Assembly (NCBI RefSeq): GCF_022664535.1
Contig: NZ_JAKUJY010000019.1
Span: forward strand, 1-64,000
DNA length: 64,000 nucleotides
Reading direction: 5' to 3'
Source: Sphingobium trunci
GTDB taxonomy: Bacteria > Pseudomonadota > Alphaproteobacteria > Sphingomonadales > Sphingomonadaceae
The notes under the pieces are model-generated. The model saw nothing but the letters and a program-made list of their open reading frames with translations. It had not been told where the DNA came from and did no database searches. The position numbers were made by a program, and so were the translations under genes. This document shows, piece by piece, positions 35,695 to 63,688 of the stretch (position 1 is its first letter; every line of letters begins with the position of its first letter).

Positions 35695-35736
35695 CAGAAT
35701 ATATTGATAGTATATTCTGATTGCTTGGCTTGTCAA
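35695..35736 (-). promoter_or_regulatory. Promoter and operator of the flavin reductase (shared palindrome, copy 1)
   Basis: On the minus strand TTGACA (35736-35731) and TATACT (35714-35709) are spaced by 16 bases. A perfect palindrome CAGAATATA-N7-TATATTCTG (35695-35719) covers the -10, as expected for a repressor site. The same motif occurs at 58762-58786 and 63640-63664. It may also serve the plus-strand acyl-CoA ligase operon. Confidence 0.75.
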
Positions 35737-35775
35737 CGGTACGACATATAGCGAACCGGAGAACAGGGGAGAGAG

Positions 35776-35910
35776 ATGAAGCTAGGTCCACAAGGATTTC
35801 AAAGTGTTCGCATGACGCAGGCGATAGCGAGCAAATGGTGGTTGCCTGACAGCCGAGACGCGCTCCACCGCGTCATTGCGACCGCCGCATCGGTAAAGGC
35901 CAGCCGATGA
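35776..35910 (+). CDS. Small ORF (44 aa) coupled to the acyl-CoA ligase gene
   Basis: Begins MKLGPQGFQSVRMTQAIASK with GGGAGAG just before its ATG, and its TGA overlaps the ATG of the acyl-CoA ligase gene (ATGA). The encoded peptide (WWLPDSRDALHRVIATAAS in the second half) has no known motif. It may be a leader peptide or a true small protein that couples translation; it could also be a remnant of a larger gene. Confidence 0.4.
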   Translation: MKLGPQGFQSVRMTQAIASKWWLPDSRDALHRVIATAASVKASR

Positions 35911-37406
35911 TCGCAACCATTGCTGAGCTCAGCGGTGCCGCAGCCGCGCGATACGGACCACGCACCGCCGTGACAATCTTGGGCGGTTCAGCGCTGAGCT
36001 TCCACGATCTCGATGCCAAGGCGGGGCGCTTGGCGGGTGGTTTGGCCGCGCACGGCCTAGGCCAAGGCGATCGAATCGCACTGCATCTTCCCAACGGCCT
36101 GGATTGGATTATCGCTTACCATGCAATTGCCCGCCTTGGTGCGGTGGTGGTCCCTTGCAACATTCTCCTGGCCCCGGAAGAGGTGGGTTGGATTACCGAC
36201 GATGCAGAGGTCGCCGCGCAGATCATTGCCTCGGATCGCACCGATGCGATCCGAGGTGCGCAAAAGGTTCTCCCGCTCACGATCACGGAGAAAGATCTTG
36301 ATCGGCTGATGACAAGCGACTGGATCAAGGCTGTCCGTTGCGAACCAGACGATCTGTTCACCATCGGCTACACCTCCGGCACGACCGGGCGGCCCAAGGG
36401 GGCGACCCAGACCCATCGCGCCGTGACCGCAAGCGTGGGAATGACCGCAACCATCCACGCGCGGCACGATGGGGACCGCATATTGACCGCCCTGCCTTTT
36501 CCGCATGTTTATGGCAACGTCGTGCTCAACACGAGCCTGCTCGTGGGCAGCACGCTCTTCGTGCTACCGCGCTTCGACGCGAGCGACGCGCTGGCCGCCA
36601 TCGGTCGGAATGGGATAACGCTGTTCGAGGGCGTTCCGACCATGTTCTACCAGATGCTTGCCCATCCGGATGTGCGATCGGCGCAGCTTCACAGCCTGCG
36701 GCGGTGCACCGTTGGCGGCCAGACGATGCCGCGCGCCAAGATCGAGGAAGTCATAGAGCGGTTCGGTTGCCCGCTGCTTGAGCTGTGGGGCATGACCGAA
36801 GTGGCGGGGCCGGCGATCACGCACTCGCCCTACTGGCCGGCTCGGCACGGCTCGATCGGGCTCCCGTTTCCCGGAATGGAGGTGCGGATCGGTTCGCTTC
36901 AACAAGCTGGCACCGTATCCAAGCCTATGGAAGCCGGCGAGATACTGGTGCGCGGCCCGCTCGTCACCAAAAGCTATTGGCGTAATTCCGGCGCAACTGC
37001 CGAAGCGATCGATGCCGCTGGATGGCTCGCGACCGGGGACGTGGGCTATGCCGACCCGGATGGGTATATATTCGTCGTGGACCGGTTGAAGGACATGATC
37101 ATCACCGGCGGCTACAATATCTATCCGGCCGAGGTTGAACAGATTCTTGCGCTCCACTCCGCAGTGGCGATGTCCGCAGTGGTGGGCGTGCCGGATGCTG
37201 AAAAGGGCGAGCTTGCCCATGCTTATATCGTGCTCGCTGGTGAGAGCGAGGCGGATGAAGCCGTCCTCAACGCACACTGCCGAGTCCATCTCGCGCCCTA
37301 CAAGGTGCCGCGGCGCTATATTTTCGTGGACGAACTGCCGCGAACCAGCACCGGCAAGATTTTGCGACGTGCTCTGCGCGGGCCGTCCAGCCTGATCAAC
37401 GAATGA
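35907..37406 (+). CDS. Acyl-CoA synthetase (AMP-binding)
   Basis: ATP-dependent acyl- or aryl-CoA ligase of 499 aa. The phosphate loop is YTSGTTGRPKG, with ELWGMTE, GWLATGDVGY and the C-terminal catalytic Lys in RTSTGKILRR. It activates a carboxylic acid to its CoA thioester. It follows the 44-aa frame with a four-base overlap and precedes an aldehyde dehydrogenase by 11 bp, which could supply its acid. It is one of three such ligases in the island. Substrate class (fatty or aromatic) is not determined. Confidence 0.9.
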   Translation: MIATIAELSGAAAARYGPRTAVTILGGSALSFHDLDAKAGRLAGGLAAHGLGQGDRIALHLPNGLDWIIAYHAIARLGAVVVPCNILLAPEEVGWITDDAEVAAQIIASDRTDAIRGAQKVLPLTITEKDLDRLMTSDWIKAVRCEPDDLFTIGYTSGTTGRPKGATQTHRAVTASVGMTATIHARHDGDRILTALPFPHVYGNVVLNTSLLVGSTLFVLPRFDASDALAAIGRNGITLFEGVPTMFYQMLAHPDVRSAQLHSLRRCTVGGQTMPRAKIEEVIERFGCPLLELWGMTEVAGPAITHSPYWPARHGSIGLPFPGMEVRIGSLQQAGTVSKPMEAGEILVRGPLVTKSYWRNSGATAEAIDAAGWLATGDVGYADPDGYIFVVDRLKDMIITGGYNIYPAEVEQILALHSAVAMSAVVGVPDAEKGELAHAYIVLAGESEADEAVLNAHCRVHLAPYKVPRRYIFVDELPRTSTGKILRRALRGPSSLINE

Positions 37407-37417
37407 GGATCTGAAAG

Positions 37418-38842
37418 ATGACTATTGATTTTGACGCCGGCTACGAGATGACGATCGATGGTCGCGCGGTTCCGGCGCACGCGCATTTCGATGCCTTCAA
37501 TCCCGCGACGGAAGAAGTGATCGCGCAGGTTCCCGACGCTTCGCGCGTGCAACTCGACGAAGCGGTCGCGTCGGCACGCAGGGCATTTCCTGCCTGGAGC
37601 GCGACGCCACTTGCAGAGCGACAGAAGGCCGTCGCGCATATCGGCGACGTGATCGACGAGAATGCCGAAGCGTTCATGCGACTGTTGACGCGCGAACAAG
37701 GGAAGGCGCGCAAAGGGGCCGAGTGGGAGATCGGCGGTTCAGTGATCTGGTGTCGCGAGATCGCGACCCAGGAACTCCCGCTGCATGTCGTCGAGAAAAC
37801 GGAGACTCGAAGCGTCGAAACGCGGCGTGTGCCGTTGGGCGTTGTCGGCGCGATCACACCCTGGAACTTCCCGCTTCTGCTGGCGATCTGGAAGATCGCT
37901 CCAGCGCTCATAACCGGCAACACGATGGTTTTGAAGCCATCGCCTTACACGCCGCTTTGTACGCTCAAACTGGGTGAATTGCTTCGCGACGTCCTTCCTG
38001 CCGGTGTCCTTAACGTCGTCTCCGGTGGGAACGAACTGGGAGCTTGGCTGACGCAGCACCCGGACGTCAGCAAGATCAGCTTCACAGGTTCCACCGCCAC
38101 CGGCCGCAAGATCATGGAGTCGGCGTCGGGCAACCTGAAGCGGATCACCCTGGAGCTTGGCGGCAACGATCCCGCGATTGTCTTGCCCGACGTAGACGTT
38201 CAGGCGACCGCGCAGGCGCTATTCTGGGCGGCGTTCCAGAACAGCGCACAATTTTGCGTCGCGGCCAAGCGCCTTTATATCCACGAAGATATTTATGACG
38301 AACTGTCCGCCGCCCTGGCGGCCTATGCCGCCACGGTGAAGGTCGGCGACGGTTCTCAGCAGGGAACCGATCTCGGCCCGATCCAGAACAAGATGCAGTT
38401 CGAAAAAGTGAAGGATCTGCTCGCCGATTCCGCGGCGGCCGGCCATCATTTTCTGACCGGCGGCGTTCCCGAGGCCGGGCAGGGCTATTTCGTGCCAGTC
38501 ACCATCGTGGACAATCCGCCGGAGGACAGCCGGGTGGTGGTCGAGGAAGCGTTCGGTCCGGTCCTGCCGCTCCTCAAGTTCCGCGACATTGACGATGTGA
38601 TCGATCGCGCCAACCGCACCGAATACGGCCTTGCCGCATCGGTGTGGAGCCGTGATACCGGGCTGGCTCGGTCCATTGCCGAACGGATCGAGGCAGGAAC
38701 GGTCTGGATCAACGAAATCCACAGCTTTTCGCCGCATGTCGCCTTTGGCGGGCACAAGCAGTCGGGCGTGGGCATTGAAAACTCTCTCGAAGGGCTCGCC
38801 GAATATAGTAATGCCCAGACGATTATCACAAATAACGCCTGA
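37418..38842 (+). CDS. NAD(P)-dependent aldehyde dehydrogenase
   Basis: ALDH of 474 aa with ITPWNFPLLL, GSTATGRKI (cofactor), LELGGNDPAIVL (general base) and the catalytic Cys in NSAQFCVAAKRLY. The residue before Cys is Phe in place of the common Val, a substrate-pocket variation. It is closely related to the ALDH at 52980-54404 (shared GNLKR-TLELGGNDPA block), so one may be a duplicate. It ends the ligase-ALDH operon, followed by a hairpin. Confidence 0.9.
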   Translation: MTIDFDAGYEMTIDGRAVPAHAHFDAFNPATEEVIAQVPDASRVQLDEAVASARRAFPAWSATPLAERQKAVAHIGDVIDENAEAFMRLLTREQGKARKGAEWEIGGSVIWCREIATQELPLHVVEKTETRSVETRRVPLGVVGAITPWNFPLLLAIWKIAPALITGNTMVLKPSPYTPLCTLKLGELLRDVLPAGVLNVVSGGNELGAWLTQHPDVSKISFTGSTATGRKIMESASGNLKRITLELGGNDPAIVLPDVDVQATAQALFWAAFQNSAQFCVAAKRLYIHEDIYDELSAALAAYAATVKVGDGSQQGTDLGPIQNKMQFEKVKDLLADSAAAGHHFLTGGVPEAGQGYFVPVTIVDNPPEDSRVVVEEAFGPVLPLLKFRDIDDVIDRANRTEYGLAASVWSRDTGLARSIAERIEAGTVWINEIHSFSPHVAFGGHKQSGVGIENSLEGLAEYSNAQTIITNNA

Positions 38843-38849
38843 CAAAATC

Positions 38850-38873
38850 GGCCCGCGTATCGCTGCGCGGGCC
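38850..38873 (+). terminator. Hairpin terminator after ligase-ALDH operon
   Basis: Stem GGCCCGCG / CGCGGGCC with an 8-base loop starts seven bases after the ALDH stop and is followed by GCGTTTG. The short T run makes it a moderate intrinsic terminator. Confidence 0.55.
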
Positions 38874-38928
38874 GCGTTTGCCTGGCTATAACAGGGGCGC
38901 GTTGTAGGAGTGTTCAGGCCAAGGCCGT

Positions 38929-39219
38929 TCAGACGGTCATCACTTTTTCACAATAGGCGGCTTCGGGCCTGTCATTGAACAGGGGGACCAAACGCGCCAG
39001 CAAGGCGCTGGCGTCCGGGTTCTTTGCTGACTTGTGGGCATCGATACTCTCCCACGTCTCAAGAAAGATGAAGCGGCGGCCATTGTCGAGATCGTGCAGC
39101 AGGTCAATTCCGTGACAGCCGGGAGCGGATCGCGCAAGCTCGGCCAATTCGATCAAGCCCGCTTTCACGCTCAGCTCCTCACCCTGCCTCGCGTGGATGA
39201 TATAATGTCTGGCTATCAT
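38929..39219 (-). CDS. Antibiotic-biosynthesis-monooxygenase-family protein (quinol monooxygenase-like)
   Basis: Small protein of 96 aa with the ferredoxin-like ABM fold pattern: IARHYIIHARQGEE, APGCHGIDLLHD and RRFIFLETWESIDAH. Such proteins (YgiN-like) oxidise quinols or aromatic substrates without cofactor, or bind them. AGGAAG precedes the ATG. It follows the riboflavin-synthesis gene by 65 bp on the same strand and ends the run that begins with the GMC gene. Confidence 0.8.
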   Translation of the reverse strand: MIARHYIIHARQGEELSVKAGLIELAELARSAPGCHGIDLLHDLDNGRRFIFLETWESIDAHKSAKNPDASALLARLVPLFNDRPEAAYCEKVMTV

Positions 39220-39284
39220 GGTTCTTCCTGCAAGCGACAGAAGCTACTGGTGTCGCCTGTGCAGGCGGCAACCGGACCTTTCAT

Positions 39285-40571
39285 TCAGGCGCTGATTGGA
39301 CGATACCCCACTACAGCCAGGTCATAGCCGTCCAGGGCGATGAGGCTGTGATGGGAGTTAGTGAGAAGGATCATATCCTGAACCCCCAGTTCCGCGAGGA
39401 TTTGCGCGCCTATCCCGTAGTCGCGCAGTTCGTCCATGTCCGTCTGTGTCTCGCCACCCGCTTTCAGCGCTTGAAATGTACGGCTGAACATGTCCGGTGT
39501 CCGCCGATTCAAAATAACGATAAGTCCAGCACCCTCATCGCCAATAATCTCCATCGAACGGGATAAGAGATGGCTGCGCGGCGCTTCCTGCCCGAAGGTG
39601 TCCGCGAATGGCGACATCTGGTGCATCCGTATAAGCGTCGGTCGATCTGGATCGACATGCCCCTTCTGCAATACGAGCTGCTCGGTGCCGGTCGCGCGGT
39701 TGAGGAAGATGATGGCCTTCCACTCGCCGCCCCATCGGCTGGTGAACGTCAGGTCGGAGCGCCGTTCAACGAGGTGATCATTGCGGCGGCGGTAGGCGAT
39801 TAGGTCGCGTATCGTTCCTATCTTGAGACCATGTTCTTTTGCGAAGGGAATGAGATCGTCGAGGCGCGCCATCGTCCCGTCGTCCCGCATGATCTCGCAA
39901 ATCACGCCAGAGGGATTGAGGCCCGCAAGGCGCGCCACGTCGACTGCGGCCTCCGTATGGCCGGTACGGACGAGGACGCCACCATCGCGTGCCACCAGCG
40001 GAAAGACATGGCCCGGCGTCACGATGTCCGACCGCCCCTTTGCCGCGTCGATCGCGACGGATATGGTGCGTGCCCTGTCGGCCGCGCTGATGCCGGTCGA
40101 TACGCCCTCCCGCGCCTCGATCGAGACGGTGAAGGCGGTTTCATGTCGCGTCCCATTTTCACGGCTCATCAGCTCAAGGCCGAGTTGGCCGACACGTTCG
40201 GACGTCAACGCCAGGCAGATCAGCCCGCGGCCGTGCGTTGCCATGAAGTTTATCGCATCGGGAGTCGCCATTTGCGCTGGTATTACCAGATCGCCTTCAT
40301 TCTCGCGGTCCTCGTCGTCTACGAGGATGAACATCCGTCCGTTTCGCGCCTCATGGATGATTTCTTCGGGAGGAGCGAGCGCGAGGCCCGCTTCGCGCTT
40401 TGCCAGATAGGTTTCGAGCCTGGAGATAGTCTCGGCGTCCGAAACCCAGTCATCGTCATCCAGATGGCGAAGGCCGCCGCTGGGGAGGCCAGCCGCGCGC
40501 GCCAGCCCGGACCGGGATAATCCGCTTTCCCTGATCAGTCTGCGGATCTTTTCAATAGTGCCATCACTCAT
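39285..40571 (-). CDS. ribB: 3,4-dihydroxy-2-butanone-4-phosphate synthase with degenerate GTP cyclohydrolase II domain and N-terminal HTH
   Basis: Protein of 428 aa. Residues 1-60 look like a DNA-binding helix-turn-helix (ESGLSRSGLARAAGLPSGGL). The DHBP-synthase domain follows with the acidic signature DDEDRENEGDL (85-95) and HTEAAVDVARLAG. The C-terminal domain aligns with GTP cyclohydrolase II but has no zinc Cys residues (RMHQMSPFADTFGQEAPR), so that activity should be absent. The enzyme makes the four-carbon precursor of riboflavin. Its presence among flavin-dependent catabolic genes suggests extra flavin supply. The ATG at 40571 follows AGGA; no RFN riboswitch was recognised upstream. 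Confidence 0.85.
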   Translation of the reverse strand: MSDGTIEKIRRLIRESGLSRSGLARAAGLPSGGLRHLDDDDWVSDAETISRLETYLAKREAGLALAPPEEIIHEARNGRMFILVDDEDRENEGDLVIPAQMATPDAINFMATHGRGLICLALTSERVGQLGLELMSRENGTRHETAFTVSIEAREGVSTGISAADRARTISVAIDAAKGRSDIVTPGHVFPLVARDGGVLVRTGHTEAAVDVARLAGLNPSGVICEIMRDDGTMARLDDLIPFAKEHGLKIGTIRDLIAYRRRNDHLVERRSDLTFTSRWGGEWKAIIFLNRATGTEQLVLQKGHVDPDRPTLIRMHQMSPFADTFGQEAPRSHLLSRSMEIIGDEGAGLIVILNRRTPDMFSRTFQALKAGGETQTDMDELRDYGIGAQILAELGVQDMILLTNSHHSLIALDGYDLAVVGYRPISA

Positions 40572-40842
40572 AGTTTCGGTTCCTGTGGCGAGTGCCGGAC
40601 CGACCCACCGCGCTTGAAGTTCGACGATGTTCGCGCTCGTAGGCGCGTAAGCCATGATGCCGAGGATCGCGACCGGCATGGAACGGGCGGCGCCTTTCAC
40701 ATGGCTATGCTGGGCAAAGCGCCAAGCGGCATGCTGGCGCCCAGTGCCGGTCCAGCGAAGGCGAACCGAACGGTTTCCCAACGGACGGCAATAAACCGGA
40801 GAGAACGGAGCGCGTTTGATTCGCCGACGCCTGATTGATTGC

Positions 40843-41727: not shown

Positions 41728-41755
41728 CGTCAATTCCTCTCCTTGATGGCCGCGT

Positions 41756-43258: not shown

Positions 43259-43287
43259 GCTGAAACATTCCATTCACAAGGTGTGGA

Positions 43288-44931: not shown

Positions 44932-44964
44932 ATGCCCGAAGATGCCTTCCTTTCCCGACACGGA

Positions 44965-45075
44965 TTACATCCCCTCCGCAATGGACGATGGAGCGAACGC
45001 CATCATTTCCGGTCCTGCCTTTCCGGACCAATGAAACGGCAACAGGCGTCCTTTGCTCTTGCTGAACATGGCCAT
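44965..45075 (-). CDS. Small ORF (36 aa) ahead of the GMC gene
   Basis: Begins MAMFSKSKGRLLPFHWSGKA with AGGAGAGGG upstream and ends with TAA 33 bp before the GMC start. No family recognised. The good ribosome site and position suggest a real small protein or a leader peptide. Confidence 0.4.
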   Translation of the reverse strand: MAMFSKSKGRLLPFHWSGKAGPEMMAFAPSSIAEGM

Positions 45076-45559
45076 CGTCTTACCCTCTCCTCAAGATTTC
45101 CTTCCGATACCGCAAGTCCTGCGGCAACTGCATCCTCGATTTGATAAAATCTTATACTTCATTCCATAGGATAATCACGTTCCGAAGAATTGTGGAAACG
45201 TATAAGAAAAATTCTGGTTTGGAGTTTCATCAATGAAGGATGGTTCGGAAGCTCTCAAGCGCGGAAATATAGCGCCGAAAACGGTCATCCTCTTACCGAC
45301 GTATCGAGCGTTATCGCGCGACTTTGATCCGCTGGCAAAAATATTCAAGATGACCAATCGTCATCCTTCCGTCTTTGGCGTCCTCTGCAAGCAATGTGGC
45401 GTCAATTGATAGTGCGCCCCATCCCCTTCGAACTACACTTGGAACGCCGGCAGACCGGCGCCAAGGAGGGGAATGAAGAGCGATGCATGCGACAGGGCGG
45501 TTTGAGTCTGTGGCAGTCGGCATGTGCGTGCGCACCCGATGGTATGCTTTGGAAACGCG
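45076..45559. promoter_or_regulatory. Divergent GMC/AraC promoter region with inverted repeat
   Basis: A 484-bp gap with no convincing gene. TCTTATAC (45150-45157) and GTATAAGA (45200-45207) form a perfect 8-bp inverted repeat 42 bp apart in an AT-rich stretch, a candidate AraC binding pair. A GC hairpin (CGCCGG-CAGA-CCGGCG) lies near 45448-45463. Confidence 0.45.
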
Positions 45560-46579
45560 ATGACGAGACCGATCACTGATCGCTGCAGCTTTCCCTCGAC
45601 TTTGTGGCGGGCAATGCGGGTGGTTGGAATCGATCCTGCAGCCGTATTGCACATGGCGGGGCTGCCCGGCAGCGTCCATCTGGACCCCGCCACGTCGCTT
45701 TCCACTTCACAATATTTCGCAATCTGGAAGGCGATCAAGGCTTTGGCGAGTGAACCCTGCATCGCCCTAAAAATCATCAAAGCGGGCGACTCCACGGGTC
45801 AGCAACCGGGCTTTCTCGCTGGCCTTTACGCCGCGAACTTTCGTGATGCGATCAGCCGCCTTCTTCATTTCAAAAGCATGGTGACATCCGAAAAGATCTG
45901 GACGAAGGAAGAACAGGGACAATGGTCGATGGGCAGGGACTGGCCCTTTGCGACGGAACCTGAACCCTCGCTTTGCATTGATCTTGCCTTTGCTTTCATG
46001 GTGGAACTGGGAAGGCGTGGAACCGGGCGGCGCGTCACGCCGATCCGCGTGCAATATACCAGGGACCGGGCCGGAGACGAGGGACTCGAAATCTATTATG
46101 GTTGCAAGGTCCATTTCGGCGCGCGGCACAACAGCATAACATTCGCCAACGAAGACCTGGACATTCCTTTTCCGGGGCACAGTCCGGAGTTTCTCGAACT
46201 CGTTACCCGCAGCGTCCTTGATGCGTTCGCCAAACTTGCCGGGGAGGACACAGTCGTCGATCGCGTCAAATCCGCGATGAAGCGAGCCATGGCCACAGGA
46301 CGGCCTGAGGCAGCGGCGATCGCGAGCGAACTCGGCATGAGTGAGCGCACGCTTCAGCGACGGATAACCGCAGAGGCATCATCCTATCGCGCGCTGCTCA
46401 TCGAAGCGCGGCGAGAGCGCGGTCTGGAGCTGCTTAGAAACCCCAGCTTCGATATCAACGCGATCACCTCGATGCTGGGGTATGAAAGTCCCACATCCTT
46501 CTATCGCGCCTTCAAGGAGTGGGAAGGCGTATCGCCCGGCGAGTGGCGGCTGCAGCGCGGAATGGACCGCGGGATCTGA
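45560..46579 (+). CDS. AraC-family regulator (OruR-like)
   Basis: Regulator of 339 aa from ATG 45560 with GGAAA upstream. The N-terminal region resembles the arabinose-binding-type sensor of OruR/ArgR-like AraC proteins; the C-terminal domain has both helix-turn-helix motifs (AAIASELGMSERTLQRRITA and INAITSMLGYESPTSFYRAF). It is divergent from the GMC operon and upstream of the PhlG-like/amidohydrolase pair, so it may govern either. Confidence 0.9.
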   Translation: MTRPITDRCSFPSTLWRAMRVVGIDPAAVLHMAGLPGSVHLDPATSLSTSQYFAIWKAIKALASEPCIALKIIKAGDSTGQQPGFLAGLYAANFRDAISRLLHFKSMVTSEKIWTKEEQGQWSMGRDWPFATEPEPSLCIDLAFAFMVELGRRGTGRRVTPIRVQYTRDRAGDEGLEIYYGCKVHFGARHNSITFANEDLDIPFPGHSPEFLELVTRSVLDAFAKLAGEDTVVDRVKSAMKRAMATGRPEAAAIASELGMSERTLQRRITAEASSYRALLIEARRERGLELLRNPSFDINAITSMLGYESPTSFYRAFKEWEGVSPGEWRLQRGMDRGI

Positions 46580-47656: not shown

Positions 47657-47672
47657 ACTACAGGAGGCCGAA

Positions 47673-49579: not shown

Positions 49580-49598
49580 TACGAAAATGATTTTCGTA
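49580..49598. promoter_or_regulatory. Shared palindrome B, copy 1 (IclR-type)
   Basis: TACGAAAA-TGA-TTTTCGTA is a perfect inverted repeat. On the minus strand it lies between TTGTTA and TATATT boxes of the MaoC promoter. The 15-bp core CGAAAATGATTTTCG recurs exactly at 55696-55710. Confidence 0.75.
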
Positions 49599-52000: not shown

Positions 52001-52014
52001 ATTTTTCTATCATC

Positions 52015-52905
52015 TCAAAGATTGGGGGGAGCGGCATCGGTTCCTTCGGGGGACTGGGCCGCATCGCCTGTGAGCAGGATGTCTTCTACCTGCCGGGCGA
52101 TGGCGATGAGGTCGGGGGCAAGCTGTTCGCGCAAATCCTTTTCCGGCAGTGCATAGGCCGGACCGCCCAGGTTGAGCACATAGATGCAATCTCCGGGATG
52201 GGCGGCGATGGGCACGGCCACGCCGCTGATGTCCTTCTGCCAATCGCCGATGCTGGTGCAGTAGCCCAGCCGGCGATGTTCATTGATGGCGTCTTCGACA
52301 CCTTTGCGTATCCGTCCCCATTCGTCTCCATAGTGGGATCGCAGCCGGTCCAGAATATCCTCTCGCTCATCACTTCCGCATGCAGCAAGATAGGCCCGCC
52401 CCATAGCGGAGGTTGCCAAGGGTAACCGCGATCCGGGAAACAGTCTCAGAGCGATGAGCGCGTCGCCTTCTGCGGTATCGGTATAGATGACCTGGAGATC
52501 ATCTCGAGTGCCCAGTCCGACATTGAAGTGACTGCCGGCCGCCAGGCGTCGCATCAACGGCAGGGCCAGGATGCGAACATTTGTGGTAGCCAGCGCGATC
52601 GCGCCGAGCCGAATGGCGCGAGGGCCAAGCCGATATTCACGGGAGCGAGGATCGAAAGACAAATAATTATGCAGGGCTAGCGTGTAGGCCAACCGCGACA
52701 CGGTCGGCTTGGTGAGGCCGGTGCGTTCGGCCAACTCGGCATTGCCGAGGCTTGCGTCATTGCGGCTGAAAGCATCGAGCAGGGCAAGGCCGCGGCCGAG
52801 CGCGACGACAACCTGAGAATCGCCATCCTCTTCACGAGCGGCATTGCCCAATTGCCCCGCCTGACGCGGCTTCGCCCGTTCAGTTGGACTGGCTTGTGCT
52901 TTCAT
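52015..52905 (-). CDS. IclR-family transcriptional regulator
   Basis: Regulator of 296 aa. A winged helix (NAELAERTGLTKPTVSRLAY) is followed by the IclR effector domain with GYCTSIGDWQKDISGVAVPI. GAGG precedes ATG 52905; the frame extends upstream without a ribosome site. It is inside the thiolase-ALDH-IclR-ligase operon, so it is likely self-regulated. IclR proteins bind short palindromes with AT-rich centres, so the two copies of CGAAAATGATTTTCG flanking its operon and the MaoC/SDR pair are the natural candidates. Confidence 0.9.
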   Translation of the reverse strand: MKAQASPTERAKPRQAGQLGNAAREEDGDSQVVVALGRGLALLDAFSRNDASLGNAELAERTGLTKPTVSRLAYTLALHNYLSFDPRSREYRLGPRAIRLGAIALATTNVRILALPLMRRLAAGSHFNVGLGTRDDLQVIYTDTAEGDALIALRLFPGSRLPLATSAMGRAYLAACGSDEREDILDRLRSHYGDEWGRIRKGVEDAINEHRRLGYCTSIGDWQKDISGVAVPIAAHPGDCIYVLNLGGPAYALPEKDLREQLAPDLIAIARQVEDILLTGDAAQSPEGTDAAPPNL

Positions 52906-52979
52906 CTGGACCTCTTGAAATAGTGCCATGTTTGTGGGCGCTCCGCGCATGGTCCCGAAGATAACCTGCGCCGTGCCCC

Positions 52980-54404
52980 TCAACCATGTCTAACCAGCAC
53001 TTGCACATTAGTATATTCAAGGAGGCCCTCCGTGGCGTTCTCGACCCCGAATCCCGATTGCTTGTGTCCTGAAAAGGGCAGGGTGGGCGTCATACCGTGA
53101 ATCGTGTTGAGCCAGACCGTGCCGGCCTCCAACTGCCGGCCGACCTTTGCCGCCTGCTCGATGTCGGCGCTCCATACCGACGATGCGAGACCATATTCGC
53201 TGTCATTCGCGCGGCGAACAGCATCTTCGATATCGCTGTACCGCAGCAGCGGGACAAGGGGGCCGAACGGCTCCTCGCGGACCACCCGGCTGTCGTCCGG
53301 CGGATTGTCGATCAGCGTCGGCGCGATGAAGTTGCCCGGTCCGGTCATCTCGCCCGGCTCGCTCAGGAAATGGAGACCTGCGGCGCGGGCTTCCTCTATC
53401 ATCGCCCTGACGCGCTCGAATTGCGCACGGTTCTGCACAGGTCCGATGCGTGCGCCCGGCATATTGCCGGGAACCGGCGGGTTCGCTCTGGCCAGCTCCG
53501 CCATCCTGGCGGCGAAACGGTCATAGATATCGTCATGCACGTAAATGCGCTTGGCGGCGATGCATACTTGTCCGGCATTGCGGAATGCGCCCCAGAACAG
53601 GCGCTCCGCAACCGATTGGACGTGGGCGTCGGGCAGCACGATTGCCGGATCGTTGCCACCCAGCTCCAATGTCAGGCGTTTGAGGTTGCCTGCGGCCCCG
53701 CGCATCACCGCTTTGCCCGTCGCCGTCGATCCGGTGAATGAAATCTTGTCGATATCGGGATGTTCGGACATGAAGGGGCCGAGATGATCGCGGCCCGAAA
53801 TGGTGTTCAGAACGCCCGGCGGCAGAACGTCCAAGAGCATTTCCCCGATTCGCAACGTCGTGAGCGGGGTGAAGGGCGACGGCTTGGCGACCACGGTGTT
53901 GCCGGTCTTGAGCGCCGGCGCGAGCTTCCACGCCATGAGCTGCACCGGGAAGTTCCATGGCGCGATGGCGCCGACGACTCCGATTGGCACATGCCGTATC
54001 TCGGCAACACGGCCATCGGGTTCGCGTTGCTGCCGCACGGGGAGCGGGTGATTTGCATAGGCTTCAAACCACCGCGCGGCCGTTTCGATTTCGTGACGTG
54101 CCTCTTCGAGGGGCTTGCCCTGCTCCTGAGTCAAAAGTTGTGCGAGCGGTTCGATCTCTCCGCGCAATCGGACGGAGGCGGCGAGAAGCATGGCATCCCG
54201 GCTGGCTGATTCGATGCGTTTCCACGCCGGAAACGCATCGCGTGCCGCAGAGACGGCTTCCTCCAGATGGCTTGCTTCGCAGTCGGGCGCCTGGGCAAAG
54301 GCTTCACCGGTTGCCGGATTGATGACCGGCATGGAGAGCGGTGTATCCACGCGACGACCATTGATCGTCGCGCTGCAAATCGCGGGAAGGCCTGCCTCAA
54401 CCAT
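52980..54404 (-). CDS. NAD(P)-dependent aldehyde dehydrogenase
   Basis: ALDH of 474 aa with IAPWNFPVQLM, GSTATGKAVM, LELGGNDPAIVL and the catalytic Cys in NAGQVCIAAKRIY. It is a close relative of the ALDH at 37418-38842, with the same length and near-identical core blocks. It starts six bases after the thiolase gene ends and probably shares its mRNA. The likely substrate is an aldehyde released by thiolytic or aldolytic side-chain cleavage. Confidence 0.9.
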   Translation of the reverse strand: MVEAGLPAICSATINGRRVDTPLSMPVINPATGEAFAQAPDCEASHLEEAVSAARDAFPAWKRIESASRDAMLLAASVRLRGEIEPLAQLLTQEQGKPLEEARHEIETAARWFEAYANHPLPVRQQREPDGRVAEIRHVPIGVVGAIAPWNFPVQLMAWKLAPALKTGNTVVAKPSPFTPLTTLRIGEMLLDVLPPGVLNTISGRDHLGPFMSEHPDIDKISFTGSTATGKAVMRGAAGNLKRLTLELGGNDPAIVLPDAHVQSVAERLFWGAFRNAGQVCIAAKRIYVHDDIYDRFAARMAELARANPPVPGNMPGARIGPVQNRAQFERVRAMIEEARAAGLHFLSEPGEMTGPGNFIAPTLIDNPPDDSRVVREEPFGPLVPLLRYSDIEDAVRRANDSEYGLASSVWSADIEQAAKVGRQLEAGTVWLNTIHGMTPTLPFSGHKQSGFGVENATEGLLEYTNVQVLVRHG

Positions 54405-54410
54405 GGCCGA

Positions 54411-55655: not shown

Positions 55656-55694
55656 CATGAGCGGGATGTAGAACACTCAGCTTACCATGTGAAG

Positions 55695-55711
55695 GCGAAA
55701 ATGATTTTCGC
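55695..55711. promoter_or_regulatory. Shared palindrome B, copy 2 (IclR-type)
   Basis: GCGAAAA-TGA-TTTTCGC, perfect. It lies 40 bp before the thiolase start on one side and 67 bp before the SDR start on the other, controlling a divergent promoter pair. The core is identical to the copy at 49580-49598. Confidence 0.75.
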
Positions 55712-55777
55712 GTTTTGTTGACGAGTGAGGCCGGAAGGCTTAGCCGTGGCGACGGGCAAGCTGATAAAGAGGTGTAA

Positions 55778-57446: not shown

Positions 57447-57572
57447 AGCCATGGGACCGTCTGGGTAGCCGGTCTGACGATGGGCTTATCGGGCGCAAAT
57501 CCACCAGGGCCGCCAAGCTCGACGCGCAGATCGAGATCATGGTTAGGTAAATTGAGAGAAGGTGCAGTTGAG

Positions 57573-58565
57573 ATGACCAAGATGGAAACCCCTTACGGAC
57601 CTGTGTTGGTGACCGGTGCGACCGGCTATCTTGCTGGATGGGTCGTAAAGCTCCTCCTCGATACCGGGGTGACCGTTCATGCGAGTGTTCGAGATCCCGA
57701 CAACATTGCCAAGGTGCGCCATCTGCTGGACATGGCGGACAAGGCGCCCGGATCGCTTCGCCTGTTCAAGGCCGACCTTCTTGATCCCGGCAGTCACGAG
57801 GCGGCGATGGACGGCTGCCGCATTGTCATGCACACCGCATCACCCTTCCTCCTCCCTTCGGGCATTTCCGACCCGCAACGCGACCTTGTCGAACCGGCGC
57901 TGGCGGGGACGCGTGACGTTCTCGAAACCGTCAATCGGGTTGCCAGCGTCGAGCGGGTGGTGCTGACCAGTTCCACCGTTGCGATTGTCGATCCGGTCCA
58001 AATTACCGACAAGATTCATACTGAGACGGACTGGAACGATTATGCGTCGATCGAAACGACGGCCTATCCCTATTCCAAGGTGCTTGCCGAACGTGAAGCG
58101 TGGAAGATCGCCGACAGTCAGGCGCGGTGGAAACTCGTCGCCATCAATCCTGCATTCATAGTCGGACCGGGAACCGCGTCCCAACAGACTTCGGCAACAT
58201 TCGACCAGTTTCGCGCCATGTCGAATGGCACCTTCAGCAAGGCGTTGCCCTCGCGCGATGTCGGCGTGATCGACGTCCGTGATGTCGCGGAGGCGCATCT
58301 CCGGGGCGCCTATGTTCCCGGGGCCGGCGGTCGGAATATCGTTTATGCCGAGGTGCTGAGCTTCAATGACATTGCGACGATCTTGAAGGAAGAATTTGGC
58401 GAGGATACGCGTTGGCAATTCCCGCCAGAGACGCCTTGGGATTTTTCGACACCCCATTGGCGTGCCGACAACAGCAAGGCCGCGTCGGAACTGGGCATGG
58501 TCTATCGACCGCTTCGTCCCGCAATCATCGAGACTTTTCGACAGCTCACCGCCCAATCGTCCTAA
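57573..58565 (+). CDS. NAD(P)-dependent reductase, cinnamyl-alcohol/dihydroflavonol reductase-like
   Basis: Extended SDR of 330 aa with VLVTGATGYLAGWV (residues 11-24) and catalytic YPYSK (165-169). It resembles plant-type cinnamoyl-CoA/dihydroflavonol reductases and bacterial relatives that reduce or oxidise phenylpropanoid-like carbonyls. The ATG at 57573 lies downstream of AGAAGG. It is third in the SDR-hydratase run, 126 bp after the hydratase gene. This family fits a phenylpropanoid-type substrate, but that remains inference. Confidence 0.8.
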   Translation: MTKMETPYGPVLVTGATGYLAGWVVKLLLDTGVTVHASVRDPDNIAKVRHLLDMADKAPGSLRLFKADLLDPGSHEAAMDGCRIVMHTASPFLLPSGISDPQRDLVEPALAGTRDVLETVNRVASVERVVLTSSTVAIVDPVQITDKIHTETDWNDYASIETTAYPYSKVLAEREAWKIADSQARWKLVAINPAFIVGPGTASQQTSATFDQFRAMSNGTFSKALPSRDVGVIDVRDVAEAHLRGAYVPGAGGRNIVYAEVLSFNDIATILKEEFGEDTRWQFPPETPWDFSTPHWRADNSKAASELGMVYRPLRPAIIETFRQLTAQSS

Positions 58566-58714
58566 CCTTTCATAAGGCGATGGATCGCAGGCTTTTTGTC
58601 GCCAGAATTCCGGACCAAGGCGCAACAGCAGTTCCGGCGCGGCGCTCGCCTCGATTGGGCGGAAAGGCGGCACTTGTCGGATGGGCAACTGCCCCATTTC
58701 GTTCGACGCAAGCC

Positions 58715-58735
58715 CGGCGGGCACGGCGCCCGCCG
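58715..58735 (+). terminator. GC-rich hairpin before the FAH promoter
   Basis: CGGCGGGC-ACGGC-GCCCGCCG, a perfect 8-bp stem with a 5-base loop, between the reductase gene and the next promoter. No T run follows, so termination efficiency is uncertain. Confidence 0.4.
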
Positions 58736-58745
58736 CGTGCTTCAC

Positions 58746-58786
58746 TTGACTCTTTTCTAGTCAGAATATACTTAAAGTATAATATG
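58746..58786 (+). promoter_or_regulatory. Promoter and operator of the FAH operon (shared palindrome, copy 2)
   Basis: TTGACT (58746-58751) and TATACT (58767-58772) with a 15-base spacer. The palindrome CAGAATATA-N7-TATAATATG (58762-58786) matches copy 1 in its whole left arm and in 7 of 9 right-arm positions, and covers the -10. Confidence 0.7.
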
Positions 58787-58841
58787 ATTCGTGGCAGCTT
58801 GGCTCCAGAGGCAAGCGCCGACGAGAATGAATGGGAGAGCC

Positions 58842-59771
58842 ATGAAACTGGGCCTGGTAGACGATTATATTCCCGCGTTGATCGACGGAGATTTGGTCAG
58901 GCTGCTGGCTGAGGATCTGCCGCAGATCATGGCTCTGCCGCCCCATGCGCGTCTGGCCGGACTGATCGAGCGGTGGGATGCGCTTGCTGCTCATATCAAG
59001 GCGAGCACCCGCCCGTGCGTGCCCCTCGACGACGTCGTGTTGCGCGCGCCTTTGCCGCGGCCAGCCAAGCTGCTTTGCGGACAGCTCAGCTTCAAGGAAG
59101 GCGTTGCGGAGGCCAAGGTCAAGCCGGCATTCTTTTTGAAGTCATCGACGAGCGTCATCGGGCCCGGTGAAACGGTCGAGCTTCCTCCGGTGGACGCTCC
59201 CGTGTTCCATCATGAAGGCGAGTTAGCGGTCGTGATCGGCAAACGCGCCAAGTCCATCACGCCGGCCGAGGCGATGGACCATGTCTTTGGCTACACCTGT
59301 TTTCTCGACATGTCGGCGCGGGGCGTCGGGCACGGCACCAGCTTTCAGGACAAGTCCTATGACACATTCGGGCCGATGGGGCCTTGGGTTCTCACCGCCG
59401 ATTGTGTTCCGGACCCTCACGAACTCCAAGTCCGTCTTTGGGTGGATGATGAGCTTCGCCAGGATTATCCAATGTCCGACATCGGCAATCCCGTGGCTGA
59501 CCTGGTTGCCTATGCCTCGTCCATCGCCGCGCTCGAACCTGGCGACGTGCTTGCGCTCGGCGTCAACCATCAGGGCATAGGTCCGATCCAGGACGGCGAC
59601 ACGGTGCGGATCGAGATCGAGCCGATCGGCGGCTTTTCGGTCCAGGTGAAGGACGCTCTCGGACGGCGCTGGGAGAAGGGCGTGGATACGAGGCTGGCTG
59701 CCGTCGTGCTCCGCATGGTGCGCGGAGAGCCCTTGGGCACCGTGGACTTTTCCCCACGGCTCGACCGCTGA
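58842..59771 (+). CDS. Fumarylacetoacetate hydrolase-family protein
   Basis: Protein of 309 aa with the FAH-fold metal site: HHEGELAVVIG (E125, E127) and FLDMSARG (D156), plus FFLKSSTSVIGPGE before it. Members hydrolyse acylpyruvates or fumarylpyruvate, or isomerise and decarboxylate meta-cleavage products. GGGAGAG precedes ATG 58842. It is the first gene of the operon FAH-ligase-thiolase-extradiol dioxygenase, so it probably acts on the product of that dioxygenase or a later intermediate. Confidence 0.85.
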   Translation: MKLGLVDDYIPALIDGDLVRLLAEDLPQIMALPPHARLAGLIERWDALAAHIKASTRPCVPLDDVVLRAPLPRPAKLLCGQLSFKEGVAEAKVKPAFFLKSSTSVIGPGETVELPPVDAPVFHHEGELAVVIGKRAKSITPAEAMDHVFGYTCFLDMSARGVGHGTSFQDKSYDTFGPMGPWVLTADCVPDPHELQVRLWVDDELRQDYPMSDIGNPVADLVAYASSIAALEPGDVLALGVNHQGIGPIQDGDTVRIEIEPIGGFSVQVKDALGRRWEKGVDTRLAAVVLRMVRGEPLGTVDFSPRLDR

Positions 59772-59781
59772 GCGCTCCGGC

Positions 59782-61332
59782 ATGAGGCTGATCGACTATC
59801 TCGACAAAGGCGCCGAACTCGGCAGTGCCGTCTCCTGTATCCTTCGGGGAGATCAGGCATGGTCCTATTCCCAGGTCATTGAGCGCACGCATCAGATTGC
59901 CTGCGCCTGCGCGCGGGATGGCTTCGGAAAAGGGGGCAAGGCAGCTGTTCTCAGTCCGAACGAGCCGGACACACTGGTGGCGATCCTGGGAATATTGCGG
60001 GCCGAATTGATTTGGTTGCCGATCAATCCGCGATATACGCTCGACGACATCACCGAGCTTTTGCATCGTTTCGATTGCGAACTGCTCATCGTGCATCCTT
60101 CATTCGAGCCGGCGATCGATCAGATCCAGGCCGCGGCGCCGGCCATCCGGCTCGTTCTCACTCTTGGGGAAGGAAGCGATGCGGTTGCATCGCTTGATGG
60201 CTGGATAGAGCCTCCCGGATCGCGGCACGAAGGCTCGGCCCCCAACGCCGAAGATGTCTGCGCGATCATGACGACCGGCGGCACGACCGGCCGGCCCAAG
60301 GGCGTCCTTCAAACCAACCGTGGGTTCGAGACCTATGTGGCGAACCATATCGCCACGATGGGACATGACGAACGTCCGCGGTATCTGGTCGTGGCCCCGC
60401 TGACCCATGCGGCGGGCTTCATGTGCTTCTCCATGCTCGCGCGCGGCGGCACGATCTTCATCGCGACTGGCACCGAGCCGCGAACGGTGGCGGATGCGAT
60501 GAGTCGCCACGGCATCACCGATCTCTTCGCGCCGCCGACCTTGATCTATACCATGCTGGCCGATCCGGAAATCCGGGCCATGCGCTTTCCCGCGCTTAAA
60601 TGCCTGTTATATGGCGCGGCGCCCATGTCGATCGAGAAGCTGCGCGAAGCGCTCGAATGGCTCGGCCCCGTCATGTACCAAGGTTTCGCGCAAGTCGAAG
60701 CCATCATGATCTGCACAGTTCTGCGGCCGCAGGACCATTTTATCGACGGCCAGATCGCCGGGCCGAAACGCCTGTCCAGTTGCGGTCGGCCAGCGCCCTT
60801 CGTGATGATGGCGGTGATGAATGAAGAAGGCGAATTGCTGCCCGACGGGTCGGTAGGCGAGATCGTCGTTCGGTCCGGAAATGTCATGCTGGGCTACTAT
60901 AATGACCCGTCCGCCAGCGCCGAGGCGTCCCGTTTTGGCTGGCATCATACGGGGGATATCGGCTTTCGGGATGAGGAAGGCTTCTACCACCTCGTCGATC
61001 GCGCTCGGGACATGATCATTTCCGGGGGATATAATATCTATCCGTCGGAGATCGAGCAGGTGCTCTGGGGCCATCCGGCCGTTCAGGATTGCGCCGTCGT
61101 GGGCGCTCCCGACCCGAAATGGGGTGAGGCGGTCACTGCTGTCGTGCAGTTGAAGGCGGGTAAAACGGTCGACGCTGCCGAACTTGTCAGCCTTTGTCGG
61201 ACCCGCGTCGGCTCGATCAAGGCCCCCAAGACAATTCTCTTCTGGCCCGAACTGCCCCGTAGTCCGGTGGGCAAGGTTCTCAAGCGCGACATCCGGGACA
61301 AACTGTGGGCGGGTGAGGCTCGCCGCATATGA
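59782..61332 (+). CDS. Acyl-CoA synthetase (AMP-binding)
   Basis: ATP-dependent ligase of 516 aa. The phosphate loop is MTTGGTTGRPKGV, later GWHHTGDIGFRDEEGF and GGYNIYPSEIEQVLWG, and the C-terminal Lys in RSPVGKVLKRD. It lies ten bases after the FAH gene and 13 bp before a thiolase gene. With that thiolase it forms a module for activation and shortening of an aromatic side chain, parallel to the ligase/thiolase set at 50-56 kb. Confidence 0.9.
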   Translation: MRLIDYLDKGAELGSAVSCILRGDQAWSYSQVIERTHQIACACARDGFGKGGKAAVLSPNEPDTLVAILGILRAELIWLPINPRYTLDDITELLHRFDCELLIVHPSFEPAIDQIQAAAPAIRLVLTLGEGSDAVASLDGWIEPPGSRHEGSAPNAEDVCAIMTTGGTTGRPKGVLQTNRGFETYVANHIATMGHDERPRYLVVAPLTHAAGFMCFSMLARGGTIFIATGTEPRTVADAMSRHGITDLFAPPTLIYTMLADPEIRAMRFPALKCLLYGAAPMSIEKLREALEWLGPVMYQGFAQVEAIMICTVLRPQDHFIDGQIAGPKRLSSCGRPAPFVMMAVMNEEGELLPDGSVGEIVVRSGNVMLGYYNDPSASAEASRFGWHHTGDIGFRDEEGFYHLVDRARDMIISGGYNIYPSEIEQVLWGHPAVQDCAVVGAPDPKWGEAVTAVVQLKAGKTVDAAELVSLCRTRVGSIKAPKTILFWPELPRSPVGKVLKRDIRDKLWAGEARRI

Positions 61333-61345
61333 TGAGGATCGACTG

Positions 61346-62584
61346 ATGCAACAGGTCTATGTAGTGGGAGTGGGAATGACGCCGTTCGGCCGGCTCCCCG
61401 ATCTCAGCGTCAAGCAACTCGCCGCCCAAGCGACACAGGCGGCTTTGCTTGATGCCGGTATTCCCGCGAGCGCTCTTGAGGCAGCCTTCTTCGGCAATGC
61501 GACCCAGGGCCATATGGAAGGCCAGCATATGGTCCGGGGAGAGATCGCGCTTCGCGCCATGGGCATACAGGGCATCCCGGTCGTCAACGTAGAGAATGCC
61601 TGCGCGACCGCCAGCACCGCCTTCATCCTAGCGGTCAACCACCTCAAGGCGGGGGAAGGCGATGTCGTTCTCGCGCTTGGGGCCGAAAAAATGGTTTCGA
61701 GCGACAAGAGCCTTATGTTTTCGGCGTTCGACAGTGCCTGGGATGTGCATGATGTTGAAGGCAATACCGCCCGGCTCAAGAATCTGGGGAACGGCGTCAC
61801 GGCTCCGCCCGGAAGCGCCTCGGAGAGACCTTATAGCGTGTTCATGGACGTCTATGCCGGGCTGGCGCGCCAGCATATGGCTCGCTTCGGAACGACGCAG
61901 CGTCAGATCGCGGCGGTCTCCTCGAAGAACCATAACCACTCGCAGCATAATCCGCTTTCGCAATTCCAGCGCCCCTTTACGATCGAAGAGGTTCTTGCGG
62001 CGCCGCCGATCACCTACCCCTTCACGCTGCCCATGTGCTCACCGATATCCGACGGCGCCGCCGCTGCCGTGATCATGACCGAAGCCGGCATGAAGCGCCA
62101 TGGGATCGATCGCAGCCGCGCCATAGTCGTGCTCTCCGCCGTGATGCAGACGGGCAGCGACCGGCCGGCCGAGGCGATTGAGCAGCATTGCACCGTCATC
62201 GCCGCCAGGAAAGCCTATGAGCGTGCAGGCGTCGGGCCGGAGGACGTGTCGGTTGCCGAAGTGCATGACGCGACCGCCGTCGGAGAAATCATCCAGATCG
62301 AAAATCTCGGGCTTTGCTCATTCGGCGAAGGCGGGTTCCTGGCCGAGCGGGGCGAGACCGCTCTGGGCGGACGCGTCCCGGTCAATCCTTCCGGCGGTTT
62401 GCAGTCCAAGGGGCACCCGATCGGTGCGACAGGTCTTGGTCAAATCTACGAGCTTGTGACGCAGCTCAGAGGCGAAGCCGGGCCACGCCAGGTCGACGGT
62501 GCAAAAATAGCGATCGCGGAGAATGGCGGCGGCTCGTTCGTCGTCGAAGAAGCGGTCGCGACAATCATCATGCTTGGCCGTTAG
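61346..62584 (+). CDS. SCP2-type thiolase-like protein
   Basis: Protein of 412 aa, clearly paralogous to the one at 54411-55655: the same start (VGVGMTPFG), Cys at residue 86 in ENACATAS, AEVHDATAVGE, KGHPIGATG and the NGGG ending in place of CxG. It either thiolyses a 3-oxoacyl-CoA or cleaves a 3-hydroxyacyl-CoA by retro-aldol reaction. No DUF35 partner gene follows. GAGGATC lies before ATG 61346. The longer upstream open frame overlaps the ligase gene and is not used. Confidence 0.85.
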   Translation: MQQVYVVGVGMTPFGRLPDLSVKQLAAQATQAALLDAGIPASALEAAFFGNATQGHMEGQHMVRGEIALRAMGIQGIPVVNVENACATASTAFILAVNHLKAGEGDVVLALGAEKMVSSDKSLMFSAFDSAWDVHDVEGNTARLKNLGNGVTAPPGSASERPYSVFMDVYAGLARQHMARFGTTQRQIAAVSSKNHNHSQHNPLSQFQRPFTIEEVLAAPPITYPFTLPMCSPISDGAAAAVIMTEAGMKRHGIDRSRAIVVLSAVMQTGSDRPAEAIEQHCTVIAARKAYERAGVGPEDVSVAEVHDATAVGEIIQIENLGLCSFGEGGFLAERGETALGGRVPVNPSGGLQSKGHPIGATGLGQIYELVTQLRGEAGPRQVDGAKIAIAENGGGSFVVEEAVATIIMLGR

Positions 62585-62596
62585 AGGAGGGACATC

Positions 62597-63532
62597 ATGT
62601 CTGTCATCAAAGCGATCGACCTGGCCTATGTCCGCGTTCGCGCTCCCGATTTCGATCAGGCGCGCCTGTTCCTCGCCGACTTCGGACTTATTGAGAATTC
62701 GCGCGATGGAGAGAGGCTTGGGTTCCGTGGGCTCGGGCCGGAGCCGGAAATCCTGACCGTCGAACCCGGCGGGCGTGGACTGGTGGCGATCGGGTTTGCC
62801 GCGGGCGCAAGAGACGATCTTGAGCGTTTTGCACAGGCCGCGAACAGCAGGGTGACGGAAAGGATGGGGCGTGGAGGCGGCTGGCAGGTTGTCGTTCACG
62901 ACCCGGACGGCAATCAGATCGAGCTGATTTGGGGGGTAACCCCGGTCGAGCCCGTCGCGGTCGATCGTCCGCACACCAATGAAGGCAGCGACCGCTATCG
63001 TCGGCAAGGGTCTGTGCGCCGGCCGGCTTCCGGACCGGCCCATGTGTTGCGGCTGGGGCATGTCGTCCTTACCACGCCCCAGCCGGAGCCGCTCGCGCAA
63101 TGGTATCGCGACATGTTCGGATTTCTGGTGTCGGACGTGGTTTACGACGGCAGCGAAGACAATGTGCTGCTTTCGTTCAACCGGCTCGACCTGGGCGACG
63201 AATATGTCGATCATCATGTCTTCCAGACCATGATCGGCCCGCCCCGCGGAATTCATCATATCTCGTTTGAAGTTCTCGACATCGACGATCTCTACATCGG
63301 CCACCAATTTCTGACGGAGCGCGGTTATCGCCATATGTGGGGCGTGGGCCGACACAAGCAGGGGAGCCAGATTTTCGATTACTGGATCGATCCATCGGGA
63401 GTCATGTATGAACACTGGACGGATACCGACCTGCTGAACGCCGACTGGACGCCTGGCATTGAATCGGCGGCCGCATCTCAAGGGCCTTGGGGGCCTCCGA
63501 TGCCCGCCGAATTCATCACCCAGGTGGGGTAG
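62597..63532 (+). CDS. Extradiol ring-cleavage dioxygenase (type I, VOC fold)
   Basis: Two-domain VOC protein of 311 aa. Iron ligands of type I extradiol dioxygenases are visible as H155 (LGHVVL), H221 (GIHHISFEV) and E272 (MYEHWTD), with the preceding His and the GYRHMWGVGRH stretch near the active site. It cleaves a catechol next to its hydroxyls using oxygen. AGGAGGG precedes the ATG. It ends the FAH-ligase-thiolase operon and is followed by the monooxygenase that could make its catechol from a phenol. 2,3-dihydroxybiphenyl- and HsaC-like enzymes are the nearest recognisable types. Confidence 0.9.
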   Translation: MSVIKAIDLAYVRVRAPDFDQARLFLADFGLIENSRDGERLGFRGLGPEPEILTVEPGGRGLVAIGFAAGARDDLERFAQAANSRVTERMGRGGGWQVVVHDPDGNQIELIWGVTPVEPVAVDRPHTNEGSDRYRRQGSVRRPASGPAHVLRLGHVVLTTPQPEPLAQWYRDMFGFLVSDVVYDGSEDNVLLSFNRLDLGDEYVDHHVFQTMIGPPRGIHHISFEVLDIDDLYIGHQFLTERGYRHMWGVGRHKQGSQIFDYWIDPSGVMYEHWTDTDLLNADWTPGIESAAASQGPWGPPMPAEFITQVG

Positions 63533-63621
63533 CGGCGTTTGACAGCCGCGATCGCTGGCCTCGTCCCGTAATTTCCCAAGCGCCTGTTGCAGCGGTGCCG
63601 CCTGATCGAGCGCCAATCCGA

Positions 63622-63664
63622 TTGACGCCCACGTAAAATAACAATATACTTGGTGTATATTATG
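63622..63664 (+). promoter_or_regulatory. Promoter and operator of the monooxygenase gene (shared palindrome, copy 3)
   Basis: TTGACG (63622-63627) and TATACT (63645-63650) with a 17-base spacer. AACAATATA-N7-TATATTATG (63640-63664) covers the -10; inside it AATATAC-N5-GTATATT is perfect. It shares layout with the sites at 35695-35719 and 58762-58786. Confidence 0.75.
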
Positions 63665-63688
63665 CTGATCGAATGGACGGAGAGGTGA

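Follow-up and report, generated by a model that had tools for sequence, protein, structure and literature searches.

How could catabolic genes strewn along a genomic island be made to answer to one switch? The question is raised by the first 64,000 bases (hereafter the window) of C11, a 94,882-base contig in the draft genome of Sphingobium trunci (83 contigs, 4,670,835 bases), for which an initial annotation had proposed that one palindromic operator recurs at three distant promoters of aromatic-degradation genes. A pattern scan of the window found the palindromes where they had been placed and with the arm counts given for them. Site 1 (35695-35719), a perfect 9-N7-9 palindrome with 0 mismatches to the consensus CAGAATATA-N7-TATATTCTG (25 bp, asymmetric), spans the -10 boxes in a two-way promoter; site 2 (58762-58786, + strand; 2 mismatches, right arm 7/9) lies in the promoter of the fumarylacetoacetate hydrolase (FAH)-ligase-thiolase-dioxygenase genes; and site 3 (63640-63664, + strand; 3 mismatches, arms 7/9 and 8/9) in that of a monooxygenase gene. 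The proposal of one operator at three distant promoters was borne out, as the element is conserved in two other species, locked in register to the -10 box and nearly absent elsewhere in the genome. It very probably marks a single regulon of scattered catabolic and uptake genes held by one dimeric repressor.

At up to three mismatches, sites 1-3 were the sole matches in the window, and 100 dinucleotide shuffles gave 0. Many equally good matches scattered through the genome would have spoken against the proposal, and the asymmetric consensus at the same threshold found these three places alone in the whole draft genome (reversed-pattern control, 0). Scanned as a symmetric 23-bp pattern, again with up to three mismatches, the genome yielded one place more, at contig 82244, which is a conserved site (site 5, contig 82243; 4 mismatches to the consensus) over a leftward promoter toward a TonB receptor gene; a further site (site 4, contig 81722; 6 mismatches) is found near the start of that gene. 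The reversed control of the symmetric pattern gave 0 in the three genomes that bear the cluster, which are the window's, G019 and G063 (Sphingobium sp. 15-1), among 94 Sphingobium genomes. A scoring matrix built from 16 sites was then applied to the window's contig, the G019 and G063 stretches and fetched loci of other Sphingobium genomes. Its own sites scored 23.5-38.9, or 20.0-36.6 with a site's own group left out, and no other place exceeded 13.5 in the window's contig or 13.3 in the G019 stretch. A simulation of 25 Mb with intergenic composition, a conservative background because the sites were included, gave 41 places that scored at least 20 and 2 that scored at least 28.

The cluster itself is rare. 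With the extradiol dioxygenase as query, a protein search of the 94 genomes gave close orthologues in G019 (95% identity) and G063 (79%) besides the window's genome, and in no other; the remaining matches among those listed are 32-44% identical. Gene order from the aldo-keto reductase gene at 33272 onward is kept in G019 and largely so in G063. Sites 1-3 are present at the orthologous promoters of both, and the palindrome and the -35 boxes are kept in aligned intergenic DNA that has diverged elsewhere. At relaxed stringency, sites 4 and 5 too prove to be conserved across the three species, and G063 carries two extra sites, h11455 before an aldehyde dehydrogenase (ALDH) gene and h80000 before a TetR-family regulator gene (the orthologue of TetR 94064; see below). 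A search of relatives gave a match in 3 of 61 genomes; besides the window's genome and G019, one other from the same order matched, with a lone weak site. Scanning genome contigs with the dioxygenase returned two loci, that of G063 and L035, a metagenome-assembled contig whose dioxygenase is 48% identical and which is without a site at up to 6 mismatches. The plasmids of PLSDB contain nothing close to TetR 94064 or the monooxygenase (best places all below 60% identity), a DNA search with 58500-64000 returned no record with a single place covering 80% of it, and among the literature titles listed none was on this cluster or operator, judged by titles and the beginnings of abstracts.

The promoters give the palindrome its likely meaning. 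Site 1 is overlapped by TTGACT-N17-TATATT on the + strand and TTGACA-N16-TATACT on the - strand, site 2 by TTGACT-N15-TATACT, site 3 by TTGACG-N17-TATACT, and site 5 by a leftward TTGACG-N17-TATATT (TATATA in G063) aimed at the TonB receptor gene. The left operator arm is itself the -10 box: in 15 of 15 copies, which are sites 2, 3 and 5 and both directions of site 1 in each of the three species, the hexamer starts at the sixth base of the operator (the count leaves out the three site 4 copies, h11455 and h80000). All 15 have a TTGACT/G/A box 15-17 bp upstream of the -10 box. Their promoter scores are 8.2-10.6; for 980 intergenic positions on one contig strand (sites included) the median is 6.0 and the 95% point 8.0, and 15 of these positions reach 10. 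The overlap with a -10 box and a TTGAC-type -35 box that had been predicted at each site therefore stands, but TATACT was not correct throughout, since the + strand -10 box of site 1 is TATATT and its TATACT is on the - strand; the 17-bp spacer ascribed to site 2 is in fact 15 bp, in all three species.

Two details bear on what site 1 serves. The flavin reductase (PF01613 by Pfam match; 35093..35587, - strand) most likely begins at ATG 35587, after GGGAGAGGGT, and not at GTG 35791, a start with which site 1 would fall inside the gene. On the other side, the AMP-forming acyl-coenzyme A (CoA) ligase (35907..37406, + strand) is a probable target whose + strand promoter is conserved, with the ALDH gene (37418..38842, + strand) downstream of it. 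These two genes had been included with a "perhaps" only, and the two-way promoter with both -35 boxes conserved makes it very likely that site 1 serves them.

From the sites, their conservation, their overlap with promoters and their near-absence elsewhere, we infer repression, induction and the transcription units as follows. The palindrome would be the operator of a dimeric repressor, which when bound would cover the -10 box of each promoter, so that RNA polymerase could not load, and a substrate or intermediate of the pathway would act as inducer and release it. The regulon would comprise the flavin reductase and ligase-ALDH genes, the FAH-ligase-thiolase-extradiol dioxygenase genes, an HsaA-like monooxygenase gene and the TonB receptor gene (contig 79251-81656, - strand; 88% identical to its Pfam-confirmed G063 orthologue). 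Sites 4 and 5 are situated between this receptor gene and a major facilitator superfamily gene (contig 82539, + strand), and because these two weaker but conserved sites are upstream of the receptor gene, uptake probably belongs to the regulon as well. They are 445-530 bp apart, and on a more tentative reading a DNA loop could bridge them. One switch would thus govern the uptake of an aromatic compound, the hydroxylation and cleavage of its ring and its activation with CoA, and the operator could be used as a biosensor part, with a regulator now named as a candidate.

Which protein binds the operator? The regulators conserved in the cluster are TetR 34445, AraC-type 45524, IclR 52015, TetR 75761, AraC-type 88432 and TetR 94064. 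The initial annotation had offered TetR 34445 or a regulator beyond 64000, and the second alternative is the better supported. TetR 94064 (contig 94064-94858, - strand; L005:14064-14858), 30 kb past the window, has close orthologues in the three cluster-bearing genomes alone among the 94, the next best match being 36% identical. In G063 its promoter holds h80000, which scores 28.1 although it was not used for the matrix, and we prefer TetR 94064 on account of this high-scoring site, giving it about an even chance of being the owner. Distant relatives could not confirm it, since nothing better than 7 mismatches was found upstream of its homologues of 29-36% identity (8 loci) and the matrix score did not exceed 6.1 in the locus of G204, whose homologue (40%) is the one further match that a search of 397 family genomes gave at E 1e-42 or better. 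We propose, more tentatively, that TetR 94064, a repressor absent from the papers cited here, acts through its own AT-rich operator on at least five promoters spread along 47 kb, among them a two-way promoter and that of a TonB receptor, in an island where several operator systems are interleaved.

Several observations weigh against a single regulon under TetR 94064. Sites 4 and 5, at 6 and 4 mismatches, are the weaker ones, and a convincing -10/-35 pair in the common register is missing from site 4, h11455 and h80000; two site 4 copies and h80000 have TATAC in register on the - strand, where the -35 box is poor. The 15-bp spacer of site 2 could also fit an activator. The G063 stretch holds one unexplained place, h95069, with a score of 21.3, and lone places in other Sphingobium genomes score as high as h80000 (L071, 29.5; L073, 28.6). 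Loci L071-L073 were fetched because they match the pattern (L072 scores 22.2), and the remaining fetched Sphingobium loci score 16.8 at most. As for the owner, no site is present in the G019 promoter of TetR 94064 (best score -0.1), and the contig of the window's genome ends about 90 bp upstream of the likely start of this gene, so that the autoregulation clue comes from one species. The G019 gene upstream of TetR 94064 corresponds to one on contig C14 in the window's genome, and a join of C14 to C11 was not seen. TetR 75761 and AraC-type 88432 are left beside TetR 94064 as candidates, and TetR 75761 has the same three-genome distribution.

The best of the rivals keeps the regulon and changes its owner to TetR 75761 (contig 75761-76450; L004:15761-16450), which is encoded 5-6 kb from the TonB receptor sites. 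This gene too is confined to those three of the 94 Sphingobium genomes, and both in the window's genome and in G063 it is near the TonB receptor gene. Its promoter stretch, however, shows no copy of the site in any of the three species, and in the window's genome it holds another palindrome, TATGACG-N3-CGTCATA. As this second palindrome is degenerate in G019 and was not found in G063, it does not settle the matter against TetR 75761, which we regard as a less likely contender; the remaining share falls to another regulator, possibly one encoded elsewhere in the genome.

It is distinctly less probable that the sites bind an activator, or that an alternative sigma factor uses them as promoter elements. 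The identity of the left arm with the -10 box and the 15-bp spacer of site 2, which is short for sigma-70, would be accommodated in this way. The two-arm symmetry, however, is kept at the one-way promoters of sites 2 and 3, and sites 1, 2, 3 and 5 have conserved -35 boxes of the ordinary TTGAC kind. In addition, a protein that covers the -10 box usually represses, which favours a repressor over either of these possibilities.

TetR 34445 (34445..35038, + strand), the nearest TetR to site 1 and conserved in the cluster, had been named as the closest candidate, and it is now very unlikely to be the owner. Its own promoter bears a different operator, a tandem GGA-N7-TCC pair (34362..34404, ends approximate) distinct from the 25-bp palindrome, which is present in 5 of 6 homologue loci and conserved in homologues from genomes that have no close copy of the cluster. 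One of these homologues, in G088 (67% identity), has the aldo-keto reductase gene adjacent in a genome without the palindrome at up to 3 mismatches; another, in G098 (48%), belongs to a genome whose one loose match is on another contig. Finally, that AT-rich promoter DNA merely happens to be palindromic is hardly credible: promoters are AT-rich in this GC-rich genome and the loose symmetric pattern has a background (reversed control, 12 of 94 and 2 of 397 genomes), but shuffles and the reversed control in the cluster-bearing genomes gave 0, and the sites are conserved against diverged flanks in three species.

In layout and logic the proposed regulon resembles its close precedent, the system of EdcR, the TetR-family oestradiol repressor of the sphingomonad Caenibius tardaugens (PMC8700777). 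According to that report, the putative EdcR operator, TnnCnnTACnAnTnGTAnnGnnA, overlaps the -10 box at four promoters of one catabolic cluster and is conserved at two operons, less so at the gene's own promoter and at a transporter gene; the operator was found in silico, and repression was shown with a mutant (PMC8700777). Compared by eye, sites 2 and 3 match its TAC-N5-GTA core and 23-bp frame, and in both systems several promoters within a single cluster have the palindrome over their -10 box. Of the 16 sites, 6 have the core unchanged, namely sites 2 and 3 of each species; site 1 and h11455 read TAT-N5-GTA, and most copies of sites 4 and 5 depart from it. Unlike the EdcR operator as described there, the other fixed bases differ, and unlike that cluster, ours has five conserved sites over 47 kb and includes a TonB receptor. 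EdcR has a TetR_C_11 domain (PMC8700777), which was matched neither by TetR 94064 (TetR_N only) nor by TetR 75761 (TetR_N and a sub-threshold TetR_C_40).

A second likeness is to PheR, the IclR-family phenanthrene repressor of Sphingobium sp. SHPJ-2, by which one Sphingobium repressor is likewise tied to both catabolic and TonB-type uptake genes (PMC13273656). The regulator family and the motif reported for it (GCAACG) differ from ours, and the PheR effect on uptake is described from transcriptomics, whereas here an operator-like site is found upstream of the receptor gene.

The 25-bp palindrome is not the only operator type in the island, and comparing the three genomes separates several. The E. 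coli IclR motif, as quoted in the PheR report, is TGGAAATNATTTCCA (PMC13273656). The palindrome was rejected as an IclR-type operator since by eye it does not fit this motif, while CGAAAATNATTTTCG at contig 49582, 55696 and 89503 does. Because of this resemblance, and by its position, CGAAAATNATTTTCG is assigned to the IclR-family regulator at 52015..52983 (- strand), with a perfect copy, CGAAAATGATTTTCG, at 55696..55710, upstream of the gene group to which the IclR gene belongs. The other perfect copies are at 49582-49596 and contig 89503. At up to one mismatch there are three CGAAAATNATTTTCG places per species, two of them common to all, including the one upstream of the IclR gene group, and the third different in G063. 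G019 also has three IclR-type operators, and G063 three with at most one change. They are assigned to a putative second regulon interleaved in the same cluster. Direct repeats of the TTGGCGTC type at 45375 and 46604 of the window, seen also in the G019 and G063 alignments, flank the AraC-family gene 45524-46579 and are probably its own sites. Both the IclR-type and the AraC-type motifs near 52015 and 45524 differ from the 25-bp palindrome. The idea that the palindrome, IclR-type, AraC-type and TetR 34445 systems are interleaved in one catabolic island, found in 3 of 94 Sphingobium genomes, is held jointly with the control of at least five promoters by TetR 94064 and is equally tentative.

Looser matches occur outside the cluster. 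With the symmetric pattern at up to 3 mismatches, 43 of 94 Sphingobium genomes had a match, against the 12 of the reversed control. Beyond the three cluster-bearing genomes, 35 of the 94 carry a recurring (C/A)GTATATAC-N5-GTATATAC(T/G), some with further single matches. Where it was read (L067:2539, L068:2091, L069:2056), this palindrome is, by eye, just upstream of what we take to be an AbrB-like antitoxin and PIN-type open reading frame (ORF) pair at all three loci, with genes nearby that are presumably for ribosomal proteins and RNA processing. Given this position in 3 of 3 loci, we consider the recurring site unrelated to the regulon. Five genomes (G008, G089, G098, G104 and G112) have other matches only, and the places in G098, G104, G022 and G019 were looked at. 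At up to 2 mismatches, 3 of 397 family genomes matched (the window's, and G270 and G141 with one place each; reversed control, 2); the perfect palindrome of G270 comes directly after an ORF and resembles a terminator. In G019, a place outside the cluster (L070:2473, G019:C1:2237473; 3 mismatches, score 20.8) is immediately before an AMP-forming ligase gene, which is possibly an extra target.

The putative target genes suggest what the regulon might be for. Past site 2, the first gene encodes an FAH-family protein (58842..59771, with a GGGAGAGCC-ATG start), followed by an AMP-forming acyl-CoA ligase (59782..61332), an SCP-type thiolase and a glyoxalase-fold extradiol dioxygenase (62597..63532), all on the + strand. 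The thiolase is given as its longest ORF, 61184..62584, and since its Pfam matches do not set in until residue 58, translation probably starts near 61330. Beyond site 3, the monooxygenase (63689..64000, + strand, continuing to contig 64894) is a flavin-dependent enzyme of acyl-CoA dehydrogenase fold, nearest to HsaA-type and Rv3094c-type flavin enzymes, with HsaA as its best NCBIfam match. The cluster thus shares protein families with steroid degradation, in which HsaA/HsaB is a two-component flavin monooxygenase and HsaC an extradiol dioxygenase, but its scores are far under the curated cut-offs. The NCBIfam equivalog cut-offs were not reached by the monooxygenase (110.2 against 450 for HsaA), the reductase (77.5 against 230 for HsaB) or the dioxygenase (34 against 450), and for the last two, NCBIfam models other than the Hsa ones score higher. 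The families would fit a flavin reductase that serves the HsaA-like monooxygenase as halves of one enzyme, and hydroxylation, meta-cleavage and hydrolysis of an aromatic compound is a plausible route. Luciferase-type monooxygenases at contig 67588, 84799 and 90266 would also need reduced flavin and could draw on the same reductase.

Some minor observations concern the cluster. None of the 24 ORFs of at least 50 residues in its gaps had a match in both relatives, so that no further conserved gene was overlooked there, and a conserved, MarR-sized ORF of 146 residues at contig 89568, considered as a regulator, is a GFA-family enzyme instead. The TonB receptor looks broken in G019 (L013:7910-11213), where only residues 1-218 of 801 were found, split into two pieces some 2.6 kb apart; the C45-type protein beside it matches over 256 of 716 residues only. 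Ahead of the ligase at site 1, a short ORF (35776-35910) has a conserved GGGGAGAGAGATG start and a protein sequence that is not conserved. In G063 as in the window's genome, though not in G019, the stop of this ORF overlaps the start of the ligase gene, and the ORF is possibly a leader for coupled translation.

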